A stretch of 64,000 bases of DNA from Omphiscola glabra (Eukaryota > Mollusca > Gastropoda > Lymnaeidae): assembly GCA_964017045.1 (NCBI GenBank), contig OZ024807.1, forward strand, positions 21,684,053 to 21,748,052, read 5' to 3'. A program made the translations under genes and the position numbers. This document shows, one piece after another, positions 4,891-49,830 of this stretch; positions within the stretch are counted from its first letter, which is position 1, and every line of letters starts with the position of its first letter. The notes under the pieces were generated by a model. The model was not told where the DNA came from. It did not search any database and saw only the letters and a program-made list of their open reading frames with translations.

Positions 4891-5094
4891 AAGGAAATTC
4901 ATTCTCTTTCTGGTGCTGTTTTGTATCTGCTTCTGGCTCTCTTAGAAAATAATCTGCAAGTTTCTCCTTAAACATGGGATCAATTTCTTGCTGGTCATGT
5001 TTGGTGTCTGCTTCTCGGTCTCTTGAAAACGAAACCCTAAGTCTGTCTTTGAATGATAAAGTGTAATGTTTTGGTCTATCGGAAATTGATGGTT
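4891..5094 (-). other. exon 4 of the broken protease-like paralog, with internal duplication
   Basis: The exon is 204 bases, against 123 in the intact copy (47275-47397). It begins EPSISDRP, homologous to ESSISERA. The extra length comes from a repeat of a segment of the form (D/E)READTK... then EPEADTKQ..., so the region grew by internal duplication. Acceptor TTGTAG and donor GTAAAA. Confidence 0.6.
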
Positions 5095-5610
5095 CTACAA
5101 TTATCGAAATCATTTAAAGGTAACAGATGTTCATTTTGCAATAAATGTTATTAGAGGATGTAATATTTATTATTTTCTTTTTAAAATATATGTCATAATA
5201 CCTTGTTAAAAACATTTAAGAAAATATCAACTTATAACACTATGTTTGTCTTTTTTCAAAATATATTTACATACGATTCATTATTGATTCCAATAAATAG
5301 AAGTGTTTTTAATTAAATTGTAGTACACATAAATTTTCAACACATAAATATAGACACATTTAACCCAGTACAATATAAATATATATATAGTTATTTATTT
5401 AATGTTTTTATTTTTTATTTTGCTCTTTTGAATTTTGTCTGGTAATTGCGGTGCTATTATACTTTTCGCAAATACTGCACATTTCACACTATAACATGAA
5501 TGTTCGATTGAACAAATGATAATCATTAGTCTCTAAAATACATACTTAAATACTTTTTTTTAAATATGGGTCATTCAACCTATCATGATACTCAGTATTT
5601 AAATATGTAC

Positions 5611-5694
5611 CACCCGTTAGTTCAGTGCGATTATCTAAGTCTTCAAAATAACCAGGATCATCAAATTCATAATGAAGATATTTATCAGAAGTCA
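5611..5694 (-). other. exon 3 of the duplicated protease-like gene family, copy A-1
   Basis: The 84-base exon has a TTTCAG acceptor and a GTACAT donor, phase 1 at both ends, coding for ...SDKYLHYEFDDPGYFEDL.... It is homologous to 48450-48533 and to the degenerate copy near 7,673-7,751. Splicing from this copy would keep the frame into 5094-4891. Confidence 0.65.
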
Positions 5695-5929
5695 CTGAAA
5701 ATAAATATAAATATGAAACATATAATTATATATTATAGTTAATAAATATAAATATGAAACATATAGTTATATCTTATAGTTAATTGAAGATTAAATTTTT
5801 AAGAATACAATTTTAACTTATAAATGTCCTAAACTAAATGTATGGAGAATTTACATTATTATATCAAAAGAGAAGAGAGGAAAAGACTAAAAATCTAAAT
5901 ATCACAATGTTGAAAAGCCCTAGGAATCA

Positions 5930-6990
5930 GAAATCTTTTGTGGACGGTCTGGAATAACGTATGGATTCCACACCAATTGGAAAATGACAATGTCGAAGCA
6001 GACAAGGAATCAGTTAGATTGATGTTTTACAAAACCGCCTTGGAGTTTCTGGGGCCAAACTCGAAAAACACCAGGAGTGGTTTGATGATATTTAGACATA
6101 ATCAATCAAATCCTGGAGGAAAAAATACCGTCTCCACCACACTTCCGTGAACAAACCGAGGTCAGTACCAATGAAAGATGCGTACAACAGTAATAAGAAG
6201 GAAGGTGCAGCAAAAACTGCGTCTAATTCAAAATAAATGTTTGAGGAACATGCCCGACGAGATCCAACGCCATGCGGACCGACATGAACAAATAATTTAT
6301 ACTCCGCTCTGAGAACAGTCTACGGCCCAGCTTCATCAGGATCATCCTCACTTCTCGAACAAGGAAATCGGTCTGCTGGTGGTCAGAAGAAATGTTTGAA
6401 AGAAAATCTAAATTCATCACTAATGTCGTTCGACACAAACCCAGATTCGTGGGAGAAAAAGCAAGGATCAAACATCATTGTGTTAAACTTTACACAGCAG
6501 CTCCATGCAACGTGAAGTTAGCAGAACAGCGGCTGCACACGAGACATACCAGGAAGGCCCGGTCTGACTCTGCTCCCGGAGATCACCCATCATTCATCAT
6601 TCTCTTGCACCTACTGCACAAGAACGGTTCTTACCGAAAATGGCCTTATTAGCCACCTGCACACCTTTAGACATAACTTTCACAAATATGATAAAAGTGG
6701 TCTTGGCCGACTCCCGAATGACGAAAACATTTAGTGATCATTTAAATTTGATAACAGCTGATTTTGTATGTATAGTATGGTACAGGGCGGAAGCAGCTGT
6801 AAAGAGAGCGCAGAGAAAGGCCAGAAAACACTGCTCCACCGCATTCGTGTGTGGGACATGCAAAAGAGACTGCCACTCGAGGATCGGTCTCACTAGCCAC
6901 ACCAAGAGCTGCAATCAGACAAGATAAATCTATCGTCTCTCGTAGACGGAAAGATGCCATACATACATATATTTATATCTATACTTTTCT
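5930..6990 (+). mobile_element. degraded LINE ORF2 fragment
   Basis: Frames with stops and shifts read through typical linker sequence of non-LTR retrotransposon polyproteins (KESVRLMFYKTALEFLGP; then LRTVYGPASSGSSSLLEQ) and end with a zinc-knuckle C-terminus (FVCGTCKRDCHSRIGLTSHT) and the usual AGACGGAAAGATGCC 3' end. The reverse transcriptase core is missing. It sits between the two copies of exon 3 in block A. Confidence 0.75.
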
Positions 6991-7043
6991 TTTTTTTTTT
7001 TATTTTGCTCTTTTGAACTTTTTATTGTAATTGCGGTGCAATT

Positions 7044-7525
7044 GAAATATCTCATTAGGAAATGGCGTCAGCGGGCCGTCGAGCTCGCGCTCCTTATGCC
7101 CTCCCTGGCACCCCCCCCCACACCTGCCAGGCGCCGGTTTTCCCCGACGTCGGGCCGTGCGGGGGAGCGCCAGAGACATCCTCGAGCGTGGAGCGTCCCC
7201 ACCGGCAACCGCTCGATCGGGTTTGCCGCCGGAGACCCTCCCCGCCCGGAGACATCTGGTCGACCGAAGACGCTGCGTTTAAAGCGTCCGCAGTCCACTT
7301 TCCTAGGGGCCGAGACGGTAAATTAACGTCCTAATATCTCCCCCCGCCCGTCTCCCTCTAAGAGGGACTCTACAGTGGGCTTCCACCTCTCAACTAATTC
7401 GCGAAGTAGCTGGGACGAAACGGTTGCCTAGGAGCAGCTTTCTCAGGGCTGCATATTTAGAATCACCGGCCATAGGCTTCCACCACAGCCTATCGCCTCA
7501 TATCCCTTAACGGCAACTTCTAATC
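7044..7525. mobile_element. 482-bp GC-rich insertion of unknown family
   Basis: Flanked by a perfect 14-base target-site duplication, ATTGCGGTGCAATT, at 7030-7043 and 7526-7539. Composition is strikingly GC-rich against AT-rich surroundings. It is open in two plus frames for about 90 codons, with low-complexity Pro/Arg/Ala translations that I do not recognise. The TSD length suits target-primed retrotransposition (a SINE or a truncated LINE), but no A-tail is seen. Confidence 0.65.
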
Positions 7526-7667
7526 ATTGCGGTGCAATTATACGTTTCGCAGATACTGCCCATTGCACATTATAATATACATGTTTGAGTGAACAAATCA
7601 TAAGCATTAGTTTCTTTTTTGTAAAAAGATGTATCATTCAAGCTATCATGATAATCAGTATTTAAAT

Positions 7668-7751
7668 ATTTACCAATTTAGTGAGATTATCCAAGTCTAC
7701 AACAAATCCAGGATCATCAAATTCATAATGAAGATATGTATCAAAAGTCAC
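7668..7751 (-). other. exon 3 duplicate, copy A-2 (degenerate 3' end)
   Basis: This is a second tandem copy of the DKYLHYEFDDPG exon, reading TFDTYLHYEFDDPGF. Its end lacks the LKD codons, and the nearest donor (TTG then GTAAAT) falls in phase 0 rather than phase 1, so use of this copy would shift the frame. It is separated from copy A-1 by a LINE fragment and a GC-rich insert. Confidence 0.55.
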
Positions 7752-8977
7752 TGAAAATAAATATAACTATGAAACATATAGAGTTATTTCTTAGTTAATG
7801 TATAGATTTATTTTTTTTTAGTATACAATGGTAACTTATAAATGTCTAAAGTTAAAAATGTGGAGAACTTACATTAGTATATCAACAGAGAAGAAATGAA
7901 ATATTAAAACGTTAAGCAAATTAAAGAATTTTAACTTATTATCCTTTTTGGCCGCCATATTTTTTCCAATGTTTCGAATTGTATTTTATGACTTCTGTGG
8001 AATAAAACTTAAGTATTTACTTTCTTCCATCATACTATTCAATATATAGCTTGGATAATATTTGCAGTATTTCATTTAAGGATTTTATGCATAAACAAAA
8101 ATTTACTTCATTTTGAGTATTATTTTTTCCATTATACTATTTTTGTTTTCATATATGTTAATTGACACTGCTACTGTATGCAAACTGGACAAAATTAAAA
8201 CAATAGCTTATATAATCATTTGTGAAGAGAAAATTCCACGATCACACAAAATTATCTTTTAAAAGATAGTATTACAAAAAGCATAAGCTAAATTCATATA
8301 CATTAAGATTATTAATATAGCTTTTAAAAAATCTACATACTCTAGGCTTTACCTTCTTAGTTTTTTCCAGAGTTCGATATAAGCACTAAATTAACTCCGT
8401 CATACAAGTAATGCGTATGCAATACATAACACCGTTAAAAAATTGTAAGGCCTAACCCATGCACTTTTTTAAAATGAAGAAGCGTACTAAATTGTGTCAG
8501 AAAATTATCTTACTCAAATCTTAGACAATAAAATCCTTGAATTAAATATTTAATTCAATCGGCAGAAGCAGCACTGAGCACGATAGAGCTAGACTTACAC
8601 ATACGTCTTTTCGAAACCAAGAGGAATATCCCATGTTCATTAAGTAATCCAAAATAAATTTAAACAGGGTGATCAAACCAATCAATGACGAGATCAAGCT
8701 ACAACGGGTCAAGTGTTGTGTTTAATTTTTTAGTCACCAAACAGCAAAACACAAACGACGGTCCTGCTACTCGACTTTATAAAACCACCATCCCCAACCC
8801 AACCAAATTGTAGATTTCTATACACCATACAATTTTAGTAATAAATATTATGATAATGTTAATAGTTCCATTTTTAAGAGGTGATTATTAAATAGTAAGC
8901 CTAAGCATAAATACGGAAATTTTAGAAATATTTAAATATAAAGCTGACGTGATAACACCTGGATGAACGATCTAAAC

Positions 8978-9178
8978 CAGCGGTTCTCAACCTGTGGGTC
9001 GCGACCCCTTGGGGGGGGGGGTCGAACGACTCTTTCACAGGGGTCGCCTAAGACCATCGGAAAACACATATACACTACAGTTAATAAATATTACGAAAAT
9101 AATTTTGTGGTTGGGGTTAACCACAGCATGAGCAACTGTAATAAAGGGTCGCGACATTAGGAAGGTTGAGAACCACTT
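8978..9178 (+). mobile_element. SPIN-like hAT non-autonomous transposon, copy 1
   Basis: Begins CAGCGGTTCTCAACC and ends GGTTGAGAACCACT, with GGGTCGCGACCCC-type inner ends and CTAAGACCATCGGAAAACAC internally. Flanks ATCTAAAC and ATATAAAC agree at 7 of 8 positions, the hAT 8-bp TSD. The ends and body resemble the SPIN family, known for horizontal transfer among tetrapods, a triatomine bug and the pond snail Lymnaea. Confidence 0.75.
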
Positions 9179-9344
9179 ATATAAACAGTTAACACACAAA
9201 TTTAAGTCATATACTTAATTAATGCTCTCTCTACAAAAAAAACTTGTGTGTTAATTTATGATGGCTGATTATGACTTACCTTAAACATGATACAACCATA
9301 ACGATGTTACGCCACATTCAAAAGCAGAGCGAGCCACTGGTGTG

Positions 9345-9352
9345 TATTTATA
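9345..9352 (-). promoter_or_regulatory. TATA box of block A gene copy
   Basis: TATAAATA on the minus strand lies about 65 bases upstream of a strong GTAAGTC donor (exon end at 9280), giving a 5' UTR exon of roughly 40 bases. The TATA box, the spacing and the donor are conserved in block B at 52,453-52,458. Confidence 0.6.
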
Positions 9353-11040
9353 GTTTTCAGAAAATAGTTGTAAAGGTGTTTTCTCGAAAAATGCTCAAAC
9401 CGCTGAATCAATCATTCGTATTTAAAATTTCTCAAACGGTCAAGGGTCACTGCTTTTAAACGACGTGTTTATAAATAGTTTTTGTTATTGGATATGTAGG
9501 CCTACTCTCTAACCATGGACCTTATAATGTACTCGAATGTAATGCCTTGCTAACGCTGTACGTAATTTCTTGTTACAGTACGTTGGTGCTGTCGTGTTAT
9601 AAAACAGCTCTTTAAGCTATGTAAAAATCCTTACGCCATTTTAAAATAAAAAAAAATATAAAAACTTTTTAAACTGATGAAAACAAATATTAAGCAACAT
9701 TAAAACATGTGCAATCTCTTTTGCAGTGTCAAATAATTGTGTACTAAAAGAAAGATTGATATGATAGAAATACGTCGTTGACTTTAAACATGTTTGAAAC
9801 ATCAATGTATACTATTTGAAATGAGCTCTACAGTTAACGTTTTCTAATATAATCAAACACACAATGCATTAAAACTGTTTAACACAAGCTTGTAGTACTT
9901 CAATAAGAATATAGTATTCGTAGATTCAAATAATTACTCCAAGAACAGTCATTCGGAACAAGTTAAAAACTGAAACACGTATAAAATCTCTCCGCGGTAG
10001 ACAACTTGTAAATATGCTCGTTGCTTTTTTCTATTACTGGGCTATTTGCATCGTTAGCAAAAAAAAAAAAAATAATAATAATTATTGTCGTTCATTGTCA
10101 TGGCTCTTTGTGTAAGAACACACTTATTCCACTAAAAGATTTTTTTAAAAATTATCTAATCTAAAATATTAGCACATAAATACAGAAAGAGATACAGTTA
10201 TTACGACTATTTGAAACAATGAGCAAACTATAGGAGTACACTTCAGATGTGGAAAATGTAGGATATATTCATTTTGTTTAAAAAAAGATGTAACACTATG
10301 ACGGGATTTATTGTTTTGTAAATTAAGTTTTTCTTAAAAAAACATTTGAACAAAAATGTTTCCAAATTATTTTGAAAATGTTTTTATTCTTTACGACAAG
10401 CAAATGCATGTATAACAATTATCATTTGCAGTGAATATACGAATCTTAAAGGCAGAAACAGACGATACGTGAAACGGGAAGAATGTAGCAAATAAAACAA
10501 TACAAAAATACAAAGTAAGCCAGCAACCACGATTTTCTTGCAAACGACGGATTGATGCAAGGAATGCAGATATTTATTTTTTTTTAATGAAACACTATGT
10601 CTGTTAACCGCGATAATTTTGCAATGTAAATTTATATCATCTGTTTAATAAAGAAATAACGTATTAATTGTTAAAATTATAGAAAATCTAAATTCCACCG
10701 TCACTCTCCAACTTTATTACGTATACAAACGTATTTCATTAATAATTGTTTGTACAGTGCACTTTGTTCATTCACTAACTTTAGTCTAGAGAGTTTAAGT
10801 TTAACAACGCTTAAACCAACGATAGAAAAATATTGGCACTGAAATGTATCCCAGGTATCGCAGACCTTTTTACTCTCAAACTCTTAAAATCGTAAAACAT
10901 CATCACAAAATAATTCAATACATTATCATAAGAGTTTTTAAAAAAGCACTTTATATAATGTATACACCTATGTTTACTCTTAGATTTCGGCGTACAGTGT
11001 ACGATTTTTTAGGTGTATACATTGTTGAAAAAGTATCACA

Positions 11041-12940: not shown

Positions 12941-14690
12941 CTATGTGACGCGACTAACACATGCATACTCAACCTCTTCGCTCGAGTATGGTTTATTTGT
13001 CGTCATGGATTCAACGTGCCGATTACGTTCATTCAATTTAGTGCCTTTCTTGGCGTGCTCAACGGTAACGTATACCAATCCTTCCTCGGTTGTGTATCGC
13101 CCATCGTCCTACAAAAGGAAAACAAATACATTGATAAAGCAACTTCATTCATGTCAAACTAGCTATTAGAATATCTTAAAGTGAAAATAAATGTATGACT
13201 TTTTGCTTTTTTAATTCTATACATGTATTTCTCTTCTTGTAAACAGGATTTTAAAGAGAAGAAAATAATAATTTAAAAAAGTTAGTTTTTTGAGTGTATA
13301 GCCCATGAGTATTTTAATATCATAGTTACATTTCCATCAGGGTCAACAATTTGATTATTATTCCCTCTTTCCGTTTGGAACTCTACACATTTTGTAGCTT
13401 GTGATACTGTTATGTAAACAAGGCCTTCGTAATTGTTATATATAGATTCCTCTGTTTGTGCCTTAAAAAAGAAGGGGTAAAAAAGCATTAAAAAGAAAAT
13501 AAATTAAGTGTTCAACTCATTTTAATGTGGTCGTCTATTGGCAAGTAAACTTATTAAAGGAAAAGCTGTAGTTTCTTTTTCACATCGTGTTAAGCATGCA
13601 ACTTACATGTTATTATTAAATAGTTTTATATTCCTCTTGTTTTCAACTTTCGAGTTTTATTTTTTTTAAACTTAATTAAACGGCTGCTTATTTCCTACAT
13701 TTTTCAGTAACATATTTCATTTTATATAACCTTGTATTAATTAACGTTTGCTTCAATTCAAAGAAAGGCAATACTTTTAAAACAAGCTTAAAAGTGCATC
13801 AGTTCACATTACTCAAAATACTTACAGCTGTTTGTGTATCTTTAGGAACGGTTTCCTTGGTCATAATTCTTTGTCCTTAAGATGAGAGTGATAACAAAAA
13901 CAAATAAACCAATATAAATCTAAGTCAGTATTTAGAGTCAATGAGCTCTTGCTCCATCTATGCATATATTGGCCACCTACTAGTAAACTCAATGTGTTGT
14001 ATCGGGTGATAGTTGTATCTAGGACCTTCCGATCGTAGTGTGAAGTTATTTTTAAGTTTCTTACTAAAGGTCACGAAGCAAACTTGGACTTACATTTTAT
14101 AATTAACAAGTACAGCGTAACTTTATTGGTTTTGGCTTTTTGAATGATACCAAAGGTTTTTAGTAGTCTTTCAGAGGTATATGTTATCCATAAAATCCAG
14201 TTTCTCGCTAGAATATCCATTATATATTTTTCTTTGTTAAAAAAACCTGCACTTAGAAATTAGTGTCCAACACCGCATTTTAGGTCTCTTATTTCTGTTG
14301 TTATTGCTGGATTTGTAAACCCTAATAAGAGACGTTGTTTTTTGAAAAAATTATTATATTTTTGTTTATCAGTTTTTATAATGTCCATTTTAGAATGTTT
14401 TGAGTTAATAAGTTATGAAAGTTTAGTAACCTTAAAGAACATGCGGTCCTCAACTCAGTCCTTACTGAAAATTCCCAGTGTGGATGAACACAGAAAACAG
14501 TCATACGGAGTGCGCTCTTTTGAAGCGGTAGCGCCAAAGTTATGGAATAGTTTATCTCAATCTTTGAGGAGTATTGACAATTATAGAAAATCATTTAGGA
14601 AACATTTAAAGACTTTTTTGTTAAATAGATTTGAGGAAACCAGAGCACAGTGAGCATGCTAAAGTAGCATGGAAATCAGCGTTATAGAAG

Positions 14691-14722
<32 letters not shown>

Positions 14723-17700
14723 ATCATCTCAAGCTGTGTGGTCAAGCTCTTTTTTTCAGTTTTTTACACCCTCTTTTTAAATGGTCCATAAAGACTCCAC
14801 TGGAATGATATCATTTGAAAAATTATGCATTGCTATATTATAGTAGTTAATTCTTTCATTGTTATCAAATGATTCGAGTTAATTTCTTTAAGTTGTTCAA
14901 TAACCAATTCCAATTAACTTGCACAAATGCTCGATCGTATTGACTTGAAGCCAAATCGTTCATCTAAATAAAGTTGTTTAAGGTTTTTGTTTGTACATTC
15001 GAATGTTATATCATTGTGGCAATGTGCCACTTTGTCTATCTATTTATAATTTTGTATATGTGGCTGGGTGCCACCTATGTTGCAGGGTGCCACATATTGG
15101 GGCACAGAGAACACACGCTGGTGTCACGATGTTTATGCCAGGCGTGTTGATAGTCACTGAGCTGTGCATGCCTGTCCCAAGGGGGGTGGGTAAAACAGCT
15201 CATGACGTGGACACAATTTGCCACTAGATAAGCAAGGGAAATTGTAACCCGGGGGCAGTCTTTTTGACGTTTTTATATGTGTAACAAAGTGTGGAGATGG
15301 GAGGATATTGTGTGTGAAATGTTGAACGGAGTGTACCTCTTGAATTAAAACGCTATAGTTCGCATGACCTGCATGTGTTGATTTTTGTTTTAACCTGTAA
15401 CCACTCGGCTACATCATGAGCATACCTTTATTTTTACAGTAGATGATCGCAACTACGGTAACTATAATTGCTACCATGAAGACAGTGACTAGAGCTGCCG
15501 TAACCACGAGTACCAACGAGTCATCATCATTCGTATCCTTGTTAACGGAGGCAATACCTGTAAAACGAAACAGTTTTATCGACTTGAAAAAATGTCATAC
15601 GTATACGGTAGCATTTTACATAAATGTCTCTTTGATCTAACCAGCAATATGGGCCTATAATTAGGATTCATCATCATCATCATCATCATCATTCTCATCA
15701 TCATCATCATCAGGTCCCGTAGTCCTTCGACCGTTGGGGCGCCACAGATGACATGTACACTATTCTTCTCCATTCCTCTCGGTCTTCTAACCTACTCATA
15801 GCATCGCCTAGTTTTAATCCAGACCATTCTTTGATATTATATTTCCATCTTTTTCTTTGTCTTCCTCTTCTTCTCCCTCCTCTAGTAGTGCCCTGCAAGA
15901 TCTCTTTGGCGAGCCCTTGTTTTCTGGTCACGTGGCCATACCACTCACGTTTGCGCTTTTTAACAGATGTCAGGAGGTCATCGTATTGCCCAATTGCCTG
16001 ACGAATCCTTTCTTTTATTTGCTCATTGGTGATGTGGATTAATTAGGATTAATAATCGTAAATATACGTTACTGAAGGCTGGTGCCGTTTAAAGCAACAC
16101 AACTTTCACGAATAGACGTATATACATTGCTTGACTTACTCAGTTACTCGCATGTCCTTATCTAAAAGAAAAGATTTCCTTAAAGTTATAAGTAGTTGAA
16201 CAAGGAATGTTTAGGCTCAAAAAGAAAAGACGTCTTATTTTCAAGCATAATCATATCTTTTCCCACAATGTATTTACTCTACACGGCAAGAAAGCAGTTG
16301 ACCTCAACAAAATTAATGAACTATTTTATTAGCATTAAAAAAAAAAAACCTTAAAAGCCATGCTTTAAATAATTACAAAAAATGATTATTACCTTTTTAA
16401 CCATTATATTTCGCCCCGAATAGTGTGGTTAGAATTACCTTTTATAATTGCCCGTTTAATGTTAAAATTTTTAAGTCCCGATTTCGCTTATATTGTAGGG
16501 AGTCGTCAAGATATATTTGTTCAATGAATACATTATTTAGTTAATAGGTCCTACCTATTACAATTGTAAAAAAAAAATATCCCATATAGTGTTACACACA
16601 TTTGTAGAAATAAAACTACAGAATATTATTAAGCGATTAGCTGCCATGAAAAAACAAAAACAAAGACAACATCGCTCGATGTATAATTGGCTTGTATTTT
16701 CCTTGTATTGTTGCATTTTTTTTTAAAGCTCCTCGAGCCTTAATTAGGTATGAAGTTGTTTTTTTTTAAAATGAACTATGTTATTGTTATTATTATTATT
16801 ATTAATATTAAGAGTAAATATAGTTAATTGAAACTTACCTTCTGTGATGTTATACTCAAGGTAGCCTATTTCGTTAAAAAGTTTCAATTTCAGTGTAGCA
16901 TTTGTTGGCTGTGACGTCAGGTTGAGATGAAAAGTGGCCAAATAAAAAATATCTATATTCTTTATTGCTGAGGTTTTGTTTATTGTTTTAGAATGATCTC
17001 GTATGCTGTCGAATTCAATATTTCTATTATTTAAGAAGAAATCCCATTGCAATAACTTTGGATTAGATATAAATGGCAAACTAATATATACATATCTTCC
17101 GTTCCAAACATTTTCAACCAATGCTTTATCCAGTTGGGGTTTAGCTGAAAATGATAAATACTTTTTTTAAAAACAAATCGTCCGTTACAAAATTCAAACT
17201 AATTAAAATAAGTATGAAATGCATAAAATGTTGATGCATTAATAATACAGGAAAATGATCTCAGAAATATAATTTAAACTTATTGCAAATGAAGAGCAGA
17301 TTGGTAAAAGAGTCTAAGAAAAGATGGAAGAAAATGTCATGAGATAAGTGCCGAGTTTACTTTTATAAAGGATTATATAATTTTATTTTAATATTTTAAT
17401 ACATGTTACAGGCAATGAGGGAAATTCATGCTTAATAGTCAAAGTGTTAAATGTCTTATGCAATTTATATTTTGTTTGACTATAATCGTCAGACATACTA
17501 TAGAATGCCTGGCAGCACTTATGCAATGTATACAATAACAATCAAAGGGATTTCAGTTATATGCAAATAAAAAGCATAAATACACTAAAAGTACAAATCG
17601 ACTATGACAAGTTTTCTAGCATCTTTAAAAAAAATTAATTTATCGCATGCGTCTGAACTAGTTGGGGATTTTCAATTACATAGTAATGTATTTATTCTCT

Positions 17701-20700
17701 TACACAAAAGCATATTTAATTTTGACACAGGGTATTATTACACATGCACTTACAAAATCCGAGTCAAGTTGAACTAGACAGCTGTGTTGCAGCTAATCTA
17801 AAGGATATGTTTGTCAATCAAAATCACTTCCATTGCCAATATATTTTTCTTAAAACCCCAAAAAACTAAGATCTGGTATAAAGCTTTTTTTAATAAAACT
17901 TTTGTCTTACGTAAAAGATATACATCTTTCTGATCATCTTTGATGACGGCAAAATGATTATGCCACAACTCGGGCATGGGAATCCGCACTGTAGTACCAG
18001 ACTCAATGAAAGAACGTATTATCAAAGCTTTTATACAAGTGTGTATTTAAGATTTATGTTGGCAGTCTTTTGAAATTTAATTACAAAATTGTGATTTCAT
18101 CAGACCTGACACAACACATTGGCACTGTACCACACAGACACAACAAAATGGGCACTGTTACTCTCCGACACAACCCATGGGCACTGTTACTCTCCGACAC
18201 AATACATGGGAATTGTACCTCTCGGACACAACACATGGGCACTGGTAATCTCCGACACAACACATGTGAACTGTACCTCTCGGACACAACACATGGAAAC
18301 TGTACCTCTCGGAAACAACACGAGGGCACTGTTACTCTCCGACACAACACAAGGGCACTGTTACTCTCAGACACAACACATGGGAACTGTACCTCTCGGA
18401 TACAACACATGGGCACTGTACCTCTCAGACACAACACAAGGACACATTACATTTCCAACACAACACATGGACACTGTACCTCTCGGACAAAGCAAAAGGA
18501 CACTGTACATCTCGGACACAACACATGGGCATAACACATCTATAAGAACTATGACCACACATAGCTTGAATATTAAACACATTTATAACAACTTTTGTAA
18601 AACATTCGTTACCCGATGAGATATCATTTTCCAGTGGTATCTCGGTACTTGGAAGGATCCCGACCCCGTTTTGATCCGATCCGGATCCCACAAGTATCCC
18701 TATCCCTTGGCTATTCCGATCCAATTGGTGTTCCAATCCAGGTGGTTTTCCGATCCCATTGGAACTCTTTTACCTGTGGGTTCCCGATTCCGTTGGTAAC
18801 CATATGTCAGTAAGATCGAGCTTCCTGATTGGATCCCGATTCCAGTTGGATACCGAGCCCGTAAGCATTTATATCCCAGTGGGATTCCGATAATGTTATT
18901 ATCCCGATAGTGGTGTGTTCTAAATCACGGTGGTATACCGATCCCGGTAGGATCGCGCTTCCCGATAGATCCCGATCCTTGTAAAATCAAGATTCCCGGT
19001 AGGATCCCTATAACGGTTGGATCCCGATCCCGTTTCACAGTGGGATTACTAACTATCTGGATTCCAGTTACGGTGTGATCGCGATCCCGTCGGTATTCCG
19101 ATCCCGGTGGCAAATTGATCCCGATAGGATCCCGATCCCATTCGTATAACGATCCCTTTATAATCGCTTTTCGCAGTGCGATTATCTATTCTGATTGGAT
19201 TACGTTTTCCGATAGGATCCCGATACTTGTTTAATCCCGTTACCTTATGGGATCGCGTTCCTGGTGGGTTCAATTAACTGTTGGATCTCGTTAACATTAC
19301 AATGAGCTTTTAGATCCCATTATATAACCCCATAGAACTACATAGAACCTTCGGAAATACTCAATTTCATATCCACTTTGAAAAGTGTAAAAAATGACTT
19401 TTTTGACGTATTTATTTTTCGAATACGAAACGGTATACAACTAAATGCACAACTATTACTATAACTGTAGTACATTTACGTTGATAGAGGAACCCCGATG
19501 GGAGCTCGTTTCGTAAGTGTAACGATTTAGTTTTGCCTGATTCGGGTGCCCTATACAAATCAGTCAGATAAATAATAAAGTTACAATTTAAAAGTTGTCC
19601 CATTAAAATAAATTTTAAATGTCATAGACACAACTTTCTTAAATGATCAAAATTTCTGGAAAATTCTAGATTGGATATTCTTAGTTTTACATCCTGCTAT
19701 ATTTCAGTATTGACTATGAAGCGTATTGCTACAAAGCTAGTTCTATATATTAACATAGAACCTATAGTGTTGTCTATGCCTTTTGGTATTTATATAGCTT
19801 AAATAAGGAACAATGACACCAGAGGAATGGATATTATGAGTTCAGTACCCTTCATTATTTGAATATGGATAATCAAGTGTATGTTTAGTAAGTTAGGTCA
19901 AGATCCTTCTATTCATGTAGGAGTATTTGTTGCTAGTTTTATTTATATAACTTGTATAAGAAAAAAACGAATTCAAAGAAAATCACACATTTTCAGGTAT
20001 TTATATATATGATATGTTTTATTGGTAGTCACTTGAACAGAAGTAGTTGCTTAAGGGGGTCGAGCAGTAGCATATGAGATACTTGTGGTTTTTGTAAGTC
20101 TTTTGATAGTGTTATGAGTTAGAAGATTGATACTTATACTTGCATAGATGTTTGAGCTTAAATGGATGAATGACATGTAGGCTCTTCATGTGGGGAAAAA
20201 AAAGATCTATATAGATTGAGTTGCTGTAGAAAGAAAATTAGTAGATTCAGTAATCACCTGCAAGTCTTCTTCTGCAAGTCTTGCTGTAAAACTTCTTGAG
20301 AAAGATGTGATGTGTTTACCAAAACGAGCCCCACAGTGAGACATCTTTATACTGGCATAATGGGTTTGGTTTATCATTACCTACAAAATTCATACAAACG
20401 ACTGCTGTTCTCGTCTTGCATCGATGTCATTAACACGTTTTTAACATTTCGATTCATAGGTTATCCATTTCCTTTACTTTGGCTAAGGCGAGTCTTACTT
20501 TGCACTGTTTGAAAGAGCGTCCAATAGAGTTTAAGCATTGATACCATTTCATTGGAAAACTCCCGACTGACAAACAAATCTGATACAGATCAACGGCAAC
20601 ACAACATTCAACTGGAACGGGACTTTGATTTGTTAAGTGAATACCAAATGTCAAAATAGAATATGATTTTGTGTATAAAAAAAAAAAAGCATTATATGAA

Positions 20701-23700
20701 AAATGTATTTCTAGTTCAGAAGGATGCAAAAAGGAAATATAGAACATCTTTGTTACTGTTACACATTTGATCTTAAAATATTTTTGCACCAGCTGTTTAT
20801 TTTTTGTTTAATAAAAGCCCCCCTCAATTTAATGTTATTATGTATTTTGCCAAAGTCAAGTCGCACATTCTGTAGAATGTTGCGCTATGCGTATATATTC
20901 TAATGAATTTCACGCTTTGATTAGAATCGCCAGTTTTTCTATAATCCTGGATTAAACACTTTACCTTACTATTTATTCTGCTAAAATACGTTTTCGGAAG
21001 ATTGACTGTTTCCGGCGGGCATTGATTAAAATTGTGATCTATCCAATGTTAAAATAACTAGTTAACAATAATGACGTAAGCATGTAAAGGGGTCCTTTTT
21101 AAATACAAACTTATTTTAAAATATCAGTGACATGTTGGGGGAGGGGATGGGTGGATGGAGAGAACGCATCTTATATATATTTTTTTTTTTTAAAAGGTTG
21201 TGGAAATAGTTTTACTTAAATAGATAAATGCTTAAGAATAGTGTGATAACTAAAAACTATTAAACATAAAATGTTTTATACTATTTTAACGTATTCTTCG
21301 TTTATTTGTTTGTCATACTTTATGTTGAATTAATTTTACATTTTATTCGTACAGTATGAGCCCAAAGTAACATTACTGAAACTCCCACATATTGAACACG
21401 TAAGTCCGTTTGTCAAAGATGCATATCTTTAGTCTCCCTTTCTTTTATATAAATGAAAATAATGTCATAATGGGCAGTAGTCGATGGAAAAGAAATTCTC
21501 AAATGGAGATAAAATATTCATATTTGTGCACAAGTTTTGCTATTAACTAAGTGATTAAGTGATCGGTAAAGGTGGCCATGCAGAAAGATTCCTAGTAATA
21601 TTTAAAAGTCGGAAAGAAGTAACACATTTGTGCGGTTCATTTTTAGACAATTTTGCCGCAATGAAAGTGTACAGTGTCAAAGGAAAGGGACGTCTGGTTC
21701 GACCAGTATGTGTTTTGATAAATGAGAAGAAAGCACCTTTTCTCCGGGTGATGCCTTTACCTTTTCGACGGACATCATTGAAACGGAATGTCAGTGATAA
21801 ATCAATGGTAAATAACTATGGGGGAAATTTCGTATCTGATACATATTGGGAAAAGCTTGACGAAAACAGATATGCGAGCCAGGATTATCAATTAAAAAAA
21901 AAAAAAGTTTCAAAATTGTATTAGTATCAAGATTGCGGTACTTCGAACAAAATATTATTGTTCTATCAGACGTTCCCTTCCGCTGACAAACTACCATTTC
22001 ACCATTTAGTTGATGTCGACTTGGTAAATCTCTCTCATACATGCCCTGCCACATTTTCAAATACGTTGAAACTTTACTATCACTTACGATCCATTTTTTA
22101 CCAACAACTGCTCAACATGCCTTCAATTCACATCTGTGCATAATTATTAATTGCACGTAAGAGTTCAAGATGAGGGAGTTTGAGTATTATTAATTTTTTC
22201 GCATGCTACATTTAATCTAACTTTCATGAAATCATGATTTTAAAAGCAACATAACTTATTTTGAGAATTGTGATTAGACAGTGCAATATTTTTTTAAGCA
22301 TTTGCATTTTTTAATTTTTGTCTAAGAACTTAGCTATTTTAATCAGAAAACGTTTTTTTTTTCATTTAAGGCAATAAACACGACCCATAATTTTAAAATA
22401 TGTGTTTTTAAAACAGCAAAGAAACGAAGAAATAAGGACTAAGACTTGAAACAACTAAATTGGTCTGTAGGCTTATAATTTGAATGACAACCATTCAAAG
22501 ACTTAACAGGTAACTACAGTCTTTGAAAAAGTGCTTATTCCTACCAAAGACTATCAGGAAATGGAACAAGCTTCTAAAAGGTCCAGTTGAGGCGACAAAA
22601 CTTGACACATTTTCGTCTAATGCCTCATGCCTTCCAACCCCCAGTTTCCGATAGCCTCGTTGAGTAGCCCATGCAATCAGAGAAATATCATTTGAAAACC
22701 ATGCACTGAAATATCGCAAAACACCTCTACATAAATCGGAGCCAGAGTGATCAACACATTGATCGTGACCCTCAGGATATAGAATAAAGGAACAAACGAG
22801 ACCGTGGACATATATTTAGATAGTAGATCATTACAGTGTAGTGAAGTAACCATCATTTTTTACTTACATAAAACATTTAGCTTTATTGTTTTGCTGTGTA
22901 GAACTTGATCACCATTTTTCTTTATTATACATCTAAAACTGCCATGGTGTTGAAGACCAGCTTTGCTAATGTTGATTGTACACACGTCTGTTAATTTGCA
23001 CGTCTGGACAGTCGTTATATTTTGACGTACTGCTTTGGGTTCAGTGGTGATATCAATTTTGAAAACGTCTTGTGAAACATTACAAGAGAGTGTCAATCGT
23101 GCTTCCTCTTTGACAATGTATGTCAAATTATCAGTATATTTTACTTTATCCGGGGGGTTTATAATAAAATGTTTTATTCTTGGAATTTTTTGTAAAATAT
23201 CAATTGCCTCACATACACCGGATGTTGTTGTCAGCGCTGGAAATTCGCCTGAAACTTAAAAAAATAATAATTATGAATAGCATTTTGAGGCGATTTTGTT
23301 GGAGCTTAAAAAGAAATCGAGAGAAAACTATATATGTATAAAGAAATGTGTGGGCGAATTAATACACAAATAAAATTCTGGTGGGCTGTGCAGTAATACT
23401 AATTTTAAAAAGGCTAATCTAAACCTTTGAAATTCAATACCAAGAAAAAATGTAAAAAACAAAACTAACACCAGCATCACGGATCAATGGGACCCGTTAA
23501 TTTTGGTTGGCAACTCATCTAATAAAGTATTGGCATGGGAACACATAGGCAAGCCTGAGAGAATACGCTGAAAAATTACGGGTGTCTCTCTCAGTAAAAA
23601 CAAAATACAGCACAAGTAAAGGCTACTGCAAGTTATCTTTGTAAGCGACGGAAAAAAGACATCTTACCGAAACGTTCTTTTAAATGTCTTTTCATGTTCA

Positions 23701-24255
23701 TATATTGCTATACTGTTTCTTGCAAACAGCTGGAACCCAGTTTCTTATAGTTTATCCTTGTTTACTTTAGTTCGTTAAGTCATCTATTGCCTATCATTTC
23801 TCCTAAATATTACATAGTATTTTCACTCTTTGGTGGCTTTGTTGACCTCTTTAGTCTACCAGTTTTGGCCTTTTTAAACATTTGTCTTGACTTTTTGGTT
23901 ATATAATAATCTTGATAGTGTGAAGCCGGTGTTTAGAAAATAAAAGAAAAGCAACATTATACATACGTTACCATACTGTTTGCATCGATATGTCCCAGTT
24001 TTACTCTAAAATTATTTATATTTTTCGTATGTTTAACTTCAATTAACCATATTTTAATTATATTAAATATATTTTAAATTTTATTTTTCTGGGAGGACGT
24101 AATTAATTTGTCAACAATTAAATCTTATGTAAATCAATTTAATAAATGAATTATTTAAAATACTAAATATGTATGATGGGTAAACTTAAAATTTTGGTGC
24201 ATTAATTACAATGCTCAACAACAATTTAGCTGTGAAATAAAAGCATGGCTTGTCA

Positions 24256-24293
<38 letters not shown>

Positions 24294-27200
24294 TCATCAT
24301 GTCCCTAAGTCCTTGGACTGTTGGGGCGCAACAGATGAAATGAAAACTACCCTCCTCCATTCGATTCTGTTTTCTGCACTTCGCACATCATCTCCTAGTT
24401 TTAGTCCCGTCCAATCTTTGATGTTATCTTCCCATATTTTTCTCTGTCTCACTATTCTTCTCCCTACAATAGTTGTGGCCTGCATGATTTCTTTGATGAG
24501 CCCTTGTTTTCTTGTATCGTGGCCATACCACTCAAATGTTCGCTTTTTTACAGTCCCCAGGAGGTCATCGTACTGCCCCATTGCCTGACGAATCCTTTCT
24601 CTCACTTGTTCATTGAAGATATGGTCTCTATAGCAGATTGCAAGAAAGCCTCTGAAACATCTGATCTCCATCGCCTTTATTTTCCTTTTAAGTTCTGATA
24701 TTAATGTCAAGGACTCAAAGGTGTCAAGGTCATGGAATCAGTGGCAGAGTATGTTTGGGTTGATTTTGGGAGAAATGAGGTATGTGAGAGAGGTGAACGA
24801 TTGTCATGTCACGGATGGGTGAATGACTTGTGAGATGTTTAGGTATAAAAGGGGGGTTAACTGTTATGTTGGAGAGAGATTTATTATTGAGAGTGGATTC
24901 GAGCAGAGTGTGTTTTGAGTTGGACGTAGTGTAACTTAATAATTCTTTTGTGTAGTTATTGGATTTGTTAGTCACTTCACATGACTATTCAATAGAAGGT
25001 GCTGTGTTTGAACACTTATATTTTCAACAAGGAATAAACATATTTGATGACTCTTAAACGACGTTGCGTGGTTTTGCCTTTTAAATTATCGGCTTATCAA
25101 CTAGAAAACGAGAATATTCTTTCGGACTAAAGAATATTTTACAAAAGGCATATAAGAAAATGAAGAAGATTGATGTGCGCATCAGCCTGATTTTGGTGTG
25201 GGGGCTATATTTTTGTCGTTCCATATTTTCTTGAGCTTCTTTAGTGTTGTCGTGGTCTGGGCAATCCTAGACATCAATTCAGTCTTGAGGCCTTCTTCTG
25301 AAACTATTGCTCCTAGGTACATGAAGCTGTCTATTGTCTCTAATCTTGCCTTCCCGGCCTTAATTACAATGGAGTTGCCGGTGGTACTATTCGTCATCAA
25401 ATGTGTCTTTTCGGCACTGATTTGCATGCCAAAGTACGATATGTCGAGATGCTTTAAGTTTGGCTAGCTCTTCTTCGTTTCCAGCCAGTCCATCTTTATC
25501 ATCCGCAAACCGTAGTTTGGTGATTGTTCTTCCACCAATGCTGACTGTCCCTACATGCGCTTCAAAAGCATTTGACATAATTTTCTCTAAGAAAAGATTG
25601 AACAGTGTGGGGGAGAGCAAGCAAGTTGTACTCCAAAAATGGTTTTGAACCATTCTCTGATGCTTTTCTTGAAGAAGACTGCACTGGTGACCTTATCATA
25701 GAGGCTGCATATCATCCTGGTTAGGTTTGTGTTGATGTTGTATTGCCTCTTGGTGCCCCATAAAGCAGCTTGTCAAACCCTGTTGAATGCATCCTTGAAA
25801 TCCACAAAGACGTGGTATAAGTTTTGTTGGTGTTAAGCATAATTCTCATATATTATTCGGAGGTTTAGGATCTACTCAGTAGTGCCACGTCCTTGTCTGA
25901 AGCCCGCCTATATTTTGGCAATGATTATGTCGGTATATGGTCTTAGTCGGTTCAATATGACCTTGAGCATGACCTTGCTTGGCTGGTTTATTAGGCTAAG
26001 AGTGTGATCGTTTTGGCAAAGCTGTAGATTACCTTTCTTGGGGAGATTTGTGATGAGCGATTTGGTCCATGATTTTGGCCATACCCCCATAAGCCATATT
26101 TTGTTACAAATATTAAATAGTGCACTTACCAGTGCTTCTCATCCTTGTTTCACCAAGTCGCTAGGGATATTGTCTACTCCCGCGGCCTTGGCCATTTGGA
26201 GTGCTTGGACTGCTGCTTTTTACTTCTGCGCGTATACAAGAGTAATTATATTTGTACGTTTCCGGGGGACATTTAGATCTCTGGATCTATCTTTATATTT
26301 TCATTATACAGCTCTGGCCAGTATTCAGTCCATCTTTTTAGGATGTCATTTCCTCGGTCAAACCTTTTCCATTTTTTCCTGTATTTTGAAGTAATATGCC
26401 CTTTCTTTGCAGTGGTTACTGTTTCAACAACTGGTATGCTTTTTTGCTATTGTTTTTCTTCAAACAGTTTTCAATGTTGTAGCATTGCTCTTATCCAATA
26501 ATTCTTCTTTGCCCTTCTCATAACTTTTTTTTTATATACAAATTACAAATTGGAAAATAATATCCTTTTCTGAACTGAAGTGAACAGTCTCTGCTAGTTT
26601 TAGTTTGCACGCTAATTCCTGATCAGTGGACTATTTATAGAGGCGATCTTGGAAGCTGTATTCCACTGTGGTAATGAAAAATTGTATATTCCTATCACTC
26701 ACAAAGACATATGATAGGATAAAATTCATTTTAAAATGAACAACTGTTTAAAACACAACTGAAACACCGTGCTGACCTTAAGGTATTATGCCTCCATGCG
26801 TACAGCTCAACAGCTGATGTAAATAACAATGTTCCTTTTTGCTTATGAAACAGTCGTGATGAGTCGTGTTATTTCAAATTTAAGAACATGAACACGAACA
26901 TAAAATTTCATATTGGAATTAGGTTAGTTTTATTAAAATTTCAAAGGATAAAACTTTGTTTTGTTATTAAGGTATTCTTGAGCAGTCTGGAGTCACACAT
27001 GTATAATCTTTTTTTATTTATTTTTTATTTATAATTTAATTTTTCAAATAGAGTTTCAATACTTAAAATCCTGTAGTGCAGCAAATAAATTTAGACTTTA
27101 AACTCTGGACTCAATAAACTCGAATTATTGTATACCACATAAAAGATGTCCAATGGCAGACGACCGGAGCTATTAATTGAAAACGGTGTTAAAACAATCT

Positions 27201-29008
27201 AGCGTTTAAAATAAACGAACATGTTTTTATTGATATATATTTAAAAACTTCATAATTTACGATATAATATTTATATATCGCTTACCTTCAAGTTTTTGAC
27301 ACACATAATATCTAGGTATACTGCAATTTTCATCTATCCAGACATATTTGTTTGAACTGTCGCAAAAAATCATTGTTGAACAATTTTTATTTCTCGGCGT
27401 TGCAGTTTCCCAATTGGTATATTTTGGCTAAAGTAACAAAAGTAAAGTTATTTGTGTGTTAATTATGAAAAATATCTGCAAGATTTAAAACAATGAAACA
27501 AAATACTCTCAACCTCATCTTCAATTAGTAAGTAGTTTATTTTTATTAAAGAACAAATTTCAGCGATAAACCTTTAGTTAGTCTAAACAGACATTCATCG
27601 ATTCGTCTCATATTTGGTCTTTTTTGTCAATTTAATAAAATACATGGAGCTATTTTGACTATTTGCAATAAAATGGAAAGTTTTGACATTGTAAGTTGTG
27701 TATATTTAATAAATTAAAAGTATAAACAAATTAGCCCTGTCTGAGAATAACATATTTTATCAATTAAGAGATTAACTTTTTGGACTTTTACCAATATGAC
27801 ACATGTCTACGAAACAATTCAATATCTGCTAGTGCAAGGATTCCTAACCAAGAGTACGTAGGTCTTAGATTGCAAGAAGACCATAAGTTTTTTTTTTATT
27901 ACCACATTTATCTTGGGTGTGTAAGATAAATAAGTTTTGAAATGCAGATGGGAGAGTAAATGCAACGCTGCAAAAAATGTTCAGAGACCTGTATTAGGGT
28001 TTTCACAAACTCTAGAAGAATGAAAGTGCTAGAGCAGTTGAAGAAAAGATTTAAACATTTCAAATTTAATTCATTTTTTAAAAATTCAGTTTACTAGACA
28101 AATTGTGGACATATGTAACAAAAATATTTAATTTTCAAACTATACATCAACAGTTAACATTAAGTAAGTTTTTTCTACCTAAGTAATAAATTGCTCCGAA
28201 TGTTGAAGAATTTTTTTGAAAAAAGACGTATTCTTACATATGTTGTTCGGCACGGACCGTTTTTGCATCTTTGTGTTGTCGTATTTAACCATATACCAGC
28301 GCCGAATGGCGTGATTGCACTTGAATGCATTTGTGCAAATATACCTTAAACAAAGAAGTTAAACATAGTTAGACTCGCAAGGGTTTCGAGTATGTTCGAT
28401 AAATATAATTTAGACGAGATGAGATTGCCTGATTAATTTCAATTTTTAAATAATAAAAATTGATTTAGCATCCTATTAGTGGTGATGATTTCGTTATGTA
28501 GAACACAATTGAAGACTTTAAATAAAGGTATTATAAAAAAGTTGTATTTAAAATTTTAAAAAAAAATTCTTAAACAAGTATGTCTTTCTTTAGTTGTATT
28601 TGCACGTTTCATATTTACCAACGAAATTACTTTGCATCTTTTCACTACATATTGTTAATATGAACGATGCATTATCATAGCAGTTCTTTTCAGCATCGAT
28701 CCAGTTTTTGGGAACATTATCGACATAAATGCAAGTTTCTCCTAACGAATGCCATCTCTCGGGACATGAAGCTGAACATATTTTTTTATAATTATTTTTT
28801 GTCTTTTTGAAGACTTTTTAAGTAATAACAAAGAATAAGAAATATACAAGCCGAATATTGATTTAAATATGTTCAATGACAAAGGGGTGATTGTTGGCAT
28901 ATTTTTAATTTATATATAGTTTATTGATTTTGTAAACATACCTTGAACGTTAGTTTTAGAGATGAACGACAAACAAAATAGAAGAGATACGTAAATCATT
29001 AGTTCCAT
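12941..29008 (-). CDS. C-type lectin / Ig-like single-pass receptor with ITIM-like tail (10 exons, 545 aa)
   Basis: Coding exons on the minus strand: 29008-28942, 28771-28619, 28344-28238, 27427-27286, 23248-22868, 17144-16839, 15557-15426, 13875-13826, 13461-13330, 13108-12941. Every junction is GT-AG. Introns are phase 1 except after exons 3, 8 and 9 (phase 0), and the summed length (1,638 nt) is an exact reading frame. Residues 1-about 18 are a signal peptide (MELMIYVSLLFCLSF...). Residues 24-157 are a C-type lectin domain: CPERW start, AGIWLN, and a WIDENC...YYVCQ end; no EPN or QPD motif, so ordinary sugar binding is doubtful. Residues about 188-284 are Ig-like, with cysteines in LTLSC and SFRC. 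Residues 284-385 form a cysteine-free beta-rich module with many N-glycosylation sites. Residues 400-425 are a transmembrane helix. The tail has LVYITV (Y462), LVYVTV (Y503) and VEYACV (Y538), all fitting the ITIM consensus. Family-level function (recognition receptor signalling through phosphatases) is inference. Confidence 0.85.
13282..13461 (-). other. alternative terminal form of receptor exon 9
   Basis: If the donor at 13329 (AAT then GTAACT) is not used, the frame reads on to a TAA at 13284-13282. That gives a 505-residue form with only the first ITIM-like motif (LVYITV), against three motifs when spliced to exon 10. Confidence 0.45.
14430..14722 (+). mobile_element. 3' end of a CR1/L2-type LINE
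   Basis: Encodes the conserved C-terminus of reverse-transcriptase polyproteins (VAPKLWNSLSQSLRS...FRKHLKTFLL). It ends in a (CAAT)n tail at 14,694-14,722, the usual microsatellite tail of such elements. It lies in receptor intron 8. Confidence 0.75.
15015..15413. mobile_element. probable solo LTR beside the receptor transmembrane exon
   Basis: Starts TGTGGCAATGTGCCA and ends CACTCGGCTACA (TG...CA), flanked by TCAT at 15011-15014 and 15414-15417. About 400 bp with an ATTAAA near the right end; no coding interior. The right edge is 8 bases from the exon 7 donor hexamer GTATGC. Confidence 0.55.
15660..16045 (-). mobile_element. 3' fragment of an RTE-like LINE
   Basis: The minus-strand translation has GRRRGRQRKRW, IKEWSGLKLGDA, REEWRRIV and SSVAPQRSKDYGT, the classic C-terminus of non-LTR retrotransposon ORF2. 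It ends in an ATG/CAT repeat tail (15,668-15,712). It lies in receptor intron 6. Confidence 0.8.
17911..18027 (-). other. candidate alternative exon in the lectin/Ig receptor gene
   Basis: The open segment of 117 bases is bounded by an AAAAG acceptor and a GTAAGAC donor, phase 1 on both sides, so it can be inserted between receptor exons 5 and 6 without shifting the frame. It encodes ESGTTVRIPMPELWHNHF and more, loosely like the start of exon 6 (WNGRYVYISLPF). The acceptor has a poor pyrimidine tract; it may be an exon relic. Confidence 0.3.
18110..18535. repeat. 29-bp minisatellite
   Basis: About 14 copies of a unit like ACAACACATGGGCACTGTAC plus CTCTCGGAC. Period 29, so three units rotate through all frames and give long spurious reading frames on both strands. 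It lies in receptor intron 5. Confidence 0.85.
18640..19330. repeat. degenerate GATCCCGAT minisatellite
   Basis: Dozens of imperfect copies of GGATCCCGATCCCGTTGG-like units (about 17-36 bp spacing), immediately next to the 29-bp array. GATCCC core repeated throughout. Confidence 0.75.
19330..22860. other. large part of receptor intron 5
   Basis: No supported exon. Two open stretches (plus 21,559-21,924; minus 22,830-22,495) translate to protein-like text that I cannot assign and that lack matching splice sites. Confidence 0.45.
24257..24300. repeat. (TA)n followed by (CAT)n
   Basis: A pure TA run, then CATCATCAT, which is the tail of the LINE fragment on the minus strand. Confidence 0.85.
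24295..26670 (-). mobile_element. degraded RTE-like LINE, longest copy
   Basis: Minus-strand pieces in order: linker near 26.6-26.4 kb, reverse-transcriptase motifs (VWPKSWTKSLITNLPKKGNL; KLRFADDKDG), EKTHLMTN...LGAIVSEEGLKTEL, and the REEW/SSVAPQQSKDLGT end. Frameshifts and stops throughout. A solo LTR is nested at 24,722-25,143. It lies in receptor intron 4. Confidence 0.8.
24722..25143 (+). mobile_element. solo LTR nested in the LINE
   Basis: 422 bp, TGTCAAGG...TTTTACA, with a perfect 5-bp TSD AAAGG (24,717-24,721 and 25,144-25,148) that splits the LINE's ...YAFESLT... codons. It contains a promoter-like TATAAAA at 24,844 and a poly(A) signal AATAAA at 25,033, as an LTR should. No internal region is present, so it arose by LTR-LTR recombination. 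Confidence 0.85.
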
Positions 29009-31704: not shown

Positions 31705-32475
31705 GGACTGAATTCAAGGGAAGAAGACCTAGTCAACCTATTGAAGCGTTTTGACAAGACTTCATGCAATTTAGTGAAGAAAAGACACAATTGATGAAAT
31801 ATAACAGCACCAGTATCGCCACTGAAATTAAGGTCGGGGATGAAAGATTAGAGACAGTAGGCGGCTTCAAGTATCCAGGAGCAATAGCCTCTGAAGAAGG
31901 CTCCAAGACCGAATTGATTTCTAGGAATGCTCAGACCACAACAGAACTAAAGGGGCTTAAGAAAATATGGAATGACAAAAATATAGCTCCCAGCACCAAT
32001 ATAAGGCTGATGCGCTCACTAGTCCTCTCCATTTTCCTGTATGCCTTTGAGTCCTGGACATAAGCAGAACTTGAAAGAAAAATAAAAGCGATGGAGATGA
32101 GATGTTTCAAAAGCATTCTTGGAATCTCTAACAGAGACCATATCTCTAACGAACAAGTACACGAAAGTATTCGTCCAGCTATTGGGCAGTATGATAACCA
32201 CATGGTGATCTTAAAAATACGCAAACTGGAATGGTATGGCCACGTGATAAGAAAACAAGGCCGCTGCCAAAGATATCATGCTGGGCACAACGAGAGGAGA
32301 GAGAAGAAGAGGAAGACAGAGAAAAAGATGAGAAGATAATATCAAAGAGTGGATATGACTAAAACTAGGTGATGCTCTGCGTATTGCAGAAAACAGAGAG
32401 TAATGGAGACAAATAGTTTGTATGTCATTTGTGGCGCCCCAAAGGTCAAATGACTAAGGGACATGATCATGATGT
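31705..32475 (+). mobile_element. 3' fragment of an RTE-like LINE
   Basis: Plus-strand EEKTQLMKYN, SEEGSKTELISRNAQTTTEL, KIKAMEMRCFKSILGISNRD and KLEWYGHVIRKQGR, with in-frame stops, ending near GACATGATCATGATG. Same family as the copies at 15.7 and 24.3-26.7 kb. It lies between the two divergent immune-like genes. Confidence 0.8.
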
Positions 32476-49734: not shown

Positions 49735-49830
49735 AATGGTAGGATGCTACGACAGTACATATTCATCCAAGTGTAGGATGCTACGACATTAAAGAGTCAT
49801 CCAATGGTAGGATGCTACGATAGTACAGAG
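49735..49830. repeat. short tandem array
   Basis: Three copies of GGTAGGATGCTACGACAGTA with about 30-bp spacing. Confidence 0.7.

Follow-up and report, generated by a model that had tools for sequence, protein, structure and literature searches.

A predicted snail receptor gene joins a C-type lectin domain and an Ig-like domain to a tail with three ITIM-like motifs

Variable single-pass receptors are candidates for parasite recognition by snails. One of these, BSUD.12903 of Biomphalaria sudanica, is described as a hyperdiverse single-pass candidate pathogen receptor with C-type lectin, immunoglobulin (Ig), TMEM154, and alternative FN3 domains, and its orthologues are named as BGLB024560 / XM_056010427 and KAK0057508 (PMC10875847). 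The passages on this lectin-Ig kind of receptor name no signaling route, and the main text of that paper is free of the words "ITIM", "tyrosine", "intracellular", and "cytoplasmic"; the nearest hint is a domain call of SIT (SHP2-interacting adaptor) in BSUD.3983, a snail gene linked to PTC2 (PMC10875847). A term search of the eLife PTC paper likewise returned no "lectin", "ITIM", or "tyrosine". Among other invertebrates, passages on the Botryllus FcoR and Hydractinia Alr candidates, which come from allorecognition loci, describe them as bearing immunoreceptor tyrosine-based inhibitory motifs (ITIMs) (PMC12065747). Here we describe a predicted gene in a 64,000-nucleotide stretch of DNA from the snail Omphiscola glabra (contig OZ024807.1, positions 21,684,053 to 21,748,052; hereafter the window), whose product would join an extracellular C-type lectin domain (CTLD) and an Ig-like domain to a transmembrane (TM) helix and a cytoplasmic tail with three ITIM-like motifs.

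The gene lies on the minus strand and runs from position 29008 to position 12941. Its ten predicted exons, when joined by a script, encode 545 residues and end with a TAG stop codon. All nine introns conform to the GT-AG rule, the entry phases (0,1,1,0,1,1,1,1,0,0) close into a single frame, and an in-frame stop is located 5′ of the exon 1 ATG. No stop or frameshift interrupts any of the ten exons, which have a G+C content of 36.3% versus 33.7% for the introns. In transcript order, the introns span 170, 274, 810, 4037, 5723, 1281, 1550, 364, and 221 bases. The sequence therefore bears out the ten-exon structure proposed in the initial annotation, wherein exon usage is a prediction. The exons are as follows.

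Exon 1, 28942..29008, minus strand: start codon and likely signal peptide, as judged by hydropathy only (residues 1-22); donor GTATGT.
Exon 2, 28619..28771, minus strand: part 1 of the CTLD, residues 23-73, with C25, C36, C53, and C64.
Exon 3, 28238..28344, minus strand: part 2 of the CTLD, residues 74-109.
Exon 4, 27286..27427, minus strand: part 3 of the CTLD, residues 110-156, with WIDENC...YYVCQ.
Exon 5, 22868..23248, minus strand, phase 1-1: residues 157-283, a stalk with C169 and the Ig-like domain with C212-C263.
Exon 6, 16839..17144, minus strand, phase 1-1: residues 284-385, a further module without cysteines that is predicted to form a beta-sandwich of Ig- or FN3-like type.
Exon 7, 15426..15557, minus strand, phase 1-1: residues 386-429, juxtamembrane segment and TM helix, the latter from hydropathy.
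Exon 8, 13826..13875, minus strand: short cytoplasmic exon, residues 430-446, placed by splice sites and phase only.
Exon 9, 13330..13461, minus strand: tail, with ITIM 1 in EGLVYITV (Y462).
Exon 10, 12941..13108, minus strand: tail, with ITIM 2 in EGLVYVTV (Y503), ITIM 3 in VEYACV (Y538), and the stop codon.

Hydropathy analysis is consistent with a receptor that crosses the membrane once. The N terminus carries a hydrophobic segment (residues 3-21; mean Kyte-Doolittle value of 1.62) that is predicted to serve as a signal peptide, and only one peak exceeds a value of 2, at about residues 399-425, where the maximum is 3.08. The single TM helix that had been claimed is thus upheld by a lone peak, and a tail follows it. 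The predicted topology would place the ITIM-like motifs on the inner side of the membrane.

Three hexamers in this tail, LVYITV (Y462), LVYVTV (Y503), and VEYACV (Y538), fit the consensus (I/V/L/S)xYxx(I/L/V), precisely as first noted. They account for three of the seven tyrosines among the 119 residues that follow residue 426, whereas the consensus fits none of the 14 tyrosines of the ectodomain. When the 119-residue tail was shuffled 200,000 times, at least three such hexamers appeared in a fraction of 0.000785 of the shuffles. The tyrosines are separated by 41 residues (Y462 to Y503) and 35 residues (Y503 to Y538), spacings that would allow two-site binding. At the level of sequence, the observation as a whole is confirmed.

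The first two motifs are embedded in a longer stretch, EGLVYxTV, that is common to exons 9 and 10. Seven of its eight residues are the same in the two exons while eight of the 24 bases differ, and different codons are used for five of the seven shared residues. As guides to how often such a pattern might arise, eight random base changes kept at least seven residues in 72 of 294,165 draws, and 4,000 shuffled versions of exon 10 yielded no seven-of-eight match to the exon 9 motif. This pattern suggests that EGLVYxTV, including position -2 relative to the tyrosine, has been held at the protein level. The shared stretch covers both positions -2 and +3, as suits an SH2 ligand.

The CTLD is the extracellular domain that is most clearly recognized. 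With the whole protein, the Pfam Lectin_C profile gives an E-value of 8.3e-05 (23.7 bits, above the cut-off of 22.6), and with the domain assembled from exons 2, 3, and 4 the match improves to 8.7e-06 (26.9 bits) and covers profile positions 2-107 of 107. Exon 4 by itself matches positions 68-107 (E 2.3e-04, 22.3 bits), neither exon 2 alone nor exon 3 alone matches Lectin_C at E≤0.1, and the combination of exons 2 and 4 matches positions 67-107 with 23.1 bits. Among the five pieces tried (exons 2, 3, and 4 singly, 2+4, and 2+3+4), only 2+3+4 yielded the full-length match, which provides mild and indirect support for the splicing of these three exons. Thus, the CTLD claimed in the initial annotation stands, both by its Lectin_C score and by its conserved cysteines.

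What had been missed is the likely loss of the canonical ligand site. The solved structure nearest to the CTLD is a chain of CLEC4A (6.3e-08), and in the alignment TPR of the snail protein lies opposite EPS, and WID opposite WND. EPN/QPD-type and WND motifs have roles in the calcium and sugar site, and the canonical forms of Ca2+-dependent sugar-binding CTLDs are not found here. These substitutions suggest that the canonical Ca2+/sugar site is likely absent, such that we set aside a canonical sugar-binding CTLD and consider the domain likely not to be a sugar binder of this type.

The evidence for the domain encoded by exon 5 is more mixed. Cysteines C212 and C263 are 51 residues apart, and a stretch reading HGSFRC resembles the F-strand signature of Ig domains. 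A trimmed 94-residue piece of exon 5 is best matched in Pfam by PF00047 (E 0.0037; 18.0 bits versus a cut-off of 21.8), followed by Ig_3 (0.0084), V-set (0.011), C2-set (0.013), and I-set (0.083), all of which are below their cut-offs. The Ig matches become weaker when exons 5 and 6 are combined (best E 0.033), and the structure model of the domain is of low confidence, with a predicted local distance difference test (pLDDT) score of 43.5. We call the domain Ig-like only, because every Pfam Ig match falls below the cut-off and the whole-protein scan yields no Ig family at E≤1. The cysteines of the Ig domain originally proposed are therefore present, whereas its family assignment is held back.

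Exon 6, which was absent from the earlier description of the extracellular architecture, appears to add a further module to the CTLD and the Ig-like domain. Structure prediction gives an all-beta arrangement of nine strands, with a pLDDT of 66 for the best of five models and 40-56 for the other four. No Pfam family, FN3 included, matches exon 6 at E≤10, and a fold comparison returned weak and mixed matches. We predict that exon 6 forms a separate second extracellular module, probably an Ig- or FN3-like beta-sandwich.

Given these features, we judge the chances to be evenly balanced that the product is a type I receptor that damps immune-cell activation via an SHP-type phosphatase. The outer CTLD would bind a protein or an atypical glycan ligand, and one or two Ig-like modules would form the stalk that holds it. 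Contact with the ligand would present the tail to a Src-family kinase, leading to phosphorylation of Y462, Y503, and Y538, and two of the resulting phosphotyrosines would jointly hold and open a tandem-SH2 phosphatase of the SHP2/corkscrew type. The opened enzyme would then dephosphorylate neighboring activating complexes in hemocytes. From the motifs and the precedents we infer this inhibitory function, as well as the ligand, the phosphorylation, the phosphatase, and the expression that it entails. A broader and more tentative proposal is that the lectin-Ig single-pass receptors of freshwater snails, which rank with the most variable of their candidate immune genes, constitute an ITIM-signaling inhibitory family, a lectin-fronted hemocyte brake that evolved independently of the vertebrate natural killer lectin receptors, wherein duplication of a signaling exon provided tandem SHP2 docking sites.

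Several points weigh against the inhibitory reading. A short consensus alone does not establish ITIM function. The EGLVYxTV stretch was chosen after inspection and the shuffles ignore a possible single duplication, so the frequencies given above are guides rather than strict probabilities; moreover, a translated search (tblastn) aligns exon 9 with exon 10 at an E-value of 0.42, which is no better than adjacent chance rows. The joins 3′ of exon 4 are supported by splice signals and phase alone, and the join of exon 3 is only mildly favored, because Lectin_C passes its cut-off even without this exon. The shortfall of the Ig matches described above counts in the same direction. Finally, none of 3,547 database candidates for the whole protein, and none of 190 for the TM helix plus tail, reached E≤1. 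Because the protein database searched includes proteins from Physella, Biomphalaria, Bulinus, and Lymnaea, this failure does not come from an absent phylum, and it suggests instead that the sequence diverges fast, that gene models are missing, or that the word filter limited the search.

The tail motifs can also be read as sorting signals. YITV, YVTV, YACV, and YEGL are all of the YxxPhi type that binds AP-2, and an endocytic lectin receptor that takes up its ligand rather than signaling through a phosphatase is a possibility that we regard as doubtful yet worth serious attention. A YxxPhi core, in the form of YxxV, lies inside every ITIM hexamer, the further YEGL is found at Y457 of the tail, and DC-SIGN and similar vertebrate lectin receptors use tyrosine sorting signals. 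The feature that would distinguish the motifs from a bare YxxV sorting signal is position -2, for which AP-2 has no requirement; this position is L or V in all three hexamers and is the same in exon 9 as in the matching stretch of exon 10. An activating or dual receptor, whose phosphotyrosines would dock a Syk- or Src-family SH2 protein or an ERK-promoting SHP2 and so trigger hemocytes, seems to us unlikely. It has a precedent in the oyster immunoglobulin superfamily (IgSF) receptor CgIgIT2, which the text of a 2025 review describes as carrying five Ig domains and an immunoreceptor tyrosine-based activation motif (ITAM) and as activating ERK, and core YxxI/L/V motifs of unknown function are ascribed to the Botryllus FcoRs in the passages concerned (PMC11999971; PMC12065747). 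However, a motif scan found ITAM spacing (YxxL/I-x6-12-YxxL/I) nowhere in the protein, so we reject an ITAM, and two oyster titles cited in the review name inhibition ("functions as immune inhibitory receptor" and "IgIT-mediated signaling inhibits"), while a third title concerns B-cell receptor-like signaling promoting phagocytosis (PMC11999971). The discrepancy between review text and cited titles over CgIgIT2 leaves the links between motif and outcome unsettled in molluscs, as far as this source goes, and this too tells against a confident assignment of inhibition.

A further alternative concerns the transcript rather than the signal. The exons might be real and yet not all be present in one transcript, if the predominant forms skip exon 6, read through exon 9, or encode a soluble CTLD-Ig protein, or the locus might be decaying under the insertion of retroelements. 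Exons 5, 6, and 7 each begin and end in phase 1 and could be skipped individually in frame. The exon 9 donor, GTAACT, appears by eye to be the weakest of the gene, and if this exon were left unspliced, the frame would stop 15 codons further on and a single ITIM would be kept, which also counts against phosphatase recruitment by a pair of sites. Old relics resembling long interspersed nuclear elements (LINEs), as identified by eye, are present inside introns 4 and 6, and the FN3 exon of BSUD.12903 is described as variably used, with nonsense variants in two snail lines (PMC10875847). We nevertheless consider this explanation quite improbable, given that all ten exons are free of stops and frameshifts, that every splice site conforms to GT-AG, and that two of the tail motifs are alike at the protein level.

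The repeats in and near the gene include the following LINE-like sequences.

24300..26138, minus strand: LINE-like retroelement relic that lies within intron 4 and is foreign to the gene, with frames read by eye.
15713-16042, minus strand: related LINE-like relic in intron 6.
31755-32336 (31.7-32.5 kb), plus strand: related LINE-like relic outside the receptor gene.

One of four frames scanned in the 24300-26138 relic matched RVT_1 with an E-value of 0.011, which is below the cut-off. Intron 5 contains a 29-base tandem array of 14.6 copies at 18108-18531, and degenerate repeats of the 'GATCCCGATCCC' type follow one another at 18.6-19.3 kb.

The receptor gene appears once in the window, since a tblastn search with the protein recovered its own ten exons and all other rows had E-values of at least 0.14; scans of the window for tRNAs and Rfam families found none. 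Two minus-strand copies of an S1/Trypsin_2-like peptidase family gene are present, one at 45994-46998 as a single open frame and one at 3663-4606 split over two frames. The former has 55 protein matches, four of which are named "Peptidase S1 domain-containing", with best identities of about 40%. Organism names accompany 52 of the 55 matches: 39 bear the name of Physella acuta, six each come from Biomphalaria and Lymnaea, and one comes from Bulinus. Biomphalaria, Lymnaea, and Bulinus are freshwater pulmonates, as is Physella, which is placed in Hygrophila. All 52 are thus freshwater snails, in agreement with the label "snail-like" that had been given to the locus. Together with the identities of about 40%, these names place the DNA probably in a hygrophilan snail other than Physella acuta. 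In one Physella acuta protein, which bears the name "GTPase IMAP family member 9-like", a part resembling the N-terminal half of the peptidase-like family is combined with an AIG1/GIMAP domain (PF04548); the fusion may be genuine, or it may stem from an error in the gene model.

The regions 3677-10522 and 46008-53518 share largely collinear repeated pieces of 68-80% identity in the same order, 42.3-43.1 kb apart, although one short piece is inverted and several of them are found again at other places in the window. This arrangement points to an old segmental duplication that flanks the receptor gene, and part of the recurring pieces may be dispersed repeats. On the plus strand, a coiled-coil frame at 37812-38384 is followed by a frame at 40566-41012 that by eye resembles a C1q/TNF-type jelly roll, and the two possibly form one gene. 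The latter frame has no match in Pfam or in the PDB at E≤1.

How, then, does the Omphiscola receptor compare with known systems? In its TM region and tail, Pfam places TMEM154 with an E-value of 0.027 (14.7 bits versus a cut-off of 30.3), UPF0697 and PsbP_2 score higher, and the whole-protein scan does not list TMEM154. A link to the GRC and PTC clusters would follow only from this subthreshold match and from analogy. CLEC4A (DCIR), whose CTLD is the nearest solved one by sequence, is a human inhibitory C-type lectin receptor. It bears an ITIM, but it is a type II protein whose tail is N-terminal and which lacks an Ig domain, and it has the EPS and WND that are replaced by TPR and WID in the snail protein. 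The CREPs of Biomphalaria, which belong to the VIgL family, resemble the present protein in being immune-linked snail proteins that combine Ig and C-type lectin domains. However, they are defined as secreted proteins with IgSF domains and a 3′-terminal lectin domain (PMC10875847), whereas here the CTLD is N-terminal and is followed by a TM helix and tail, and we therefore reject membership in this group.

With BSUD.12903, as far as its published description allows comparison, the receptor shares a snail origin, an extracellular CTLD, and a single predicted membrane pass, and it may also share an Ig-type region and an extra domain on a skippable exon. The two are of comparable size, at 647 residues (741 with the extra exon) versus 545, and they differ in that FN3 and TMEM154 are called in BSUD.12903 whereas exon 6 and the TM and tail region miss the Pfam cut-offs here (PMC10875847). 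The suggestion that the receptor was possibly undescribed is thus not supported for the domain combination, which had already been published (PMC10875847). The oyster receptors CgIgIT and CgIgIT2 are likewise mollusc transmembrane IgSF receptors with tyrosine-motif tails, and inhibitory according to the cited titles, but the review names five Ig domains and no CTLD for CgIgIT2 and calls its motif an ITAM (PMC11999971). As described in the passages on them, the Botryllus FcoRs are invertebrate type I receptors with Ig domains and ITIM tails, which have sushi domains and no named CTLD, and Hydractinia Alr shares the ITIM tail (PMC12065747). Among the matches listed, as judged from titles and the beginnings of abstracts in literature that mostly excludes subscription journals, we recognized no ITIM-tailed lectin-Ig receptor of molluscs or other invertebrates. 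These sources describe lectin-Ig receptors in snails on the one hand and ITIM-bearing receptors in invertebrates on the other, and within them the joining of the two appears new. A receptor of this type would extend the ITIM logic of Botryllus, Hydractinia, and the oyster to a lectin-fronted protein in gastropods. Should the BSUD.12903 tail carry the same motifs, the Omphiscola protein would simply be a new member of its kind.

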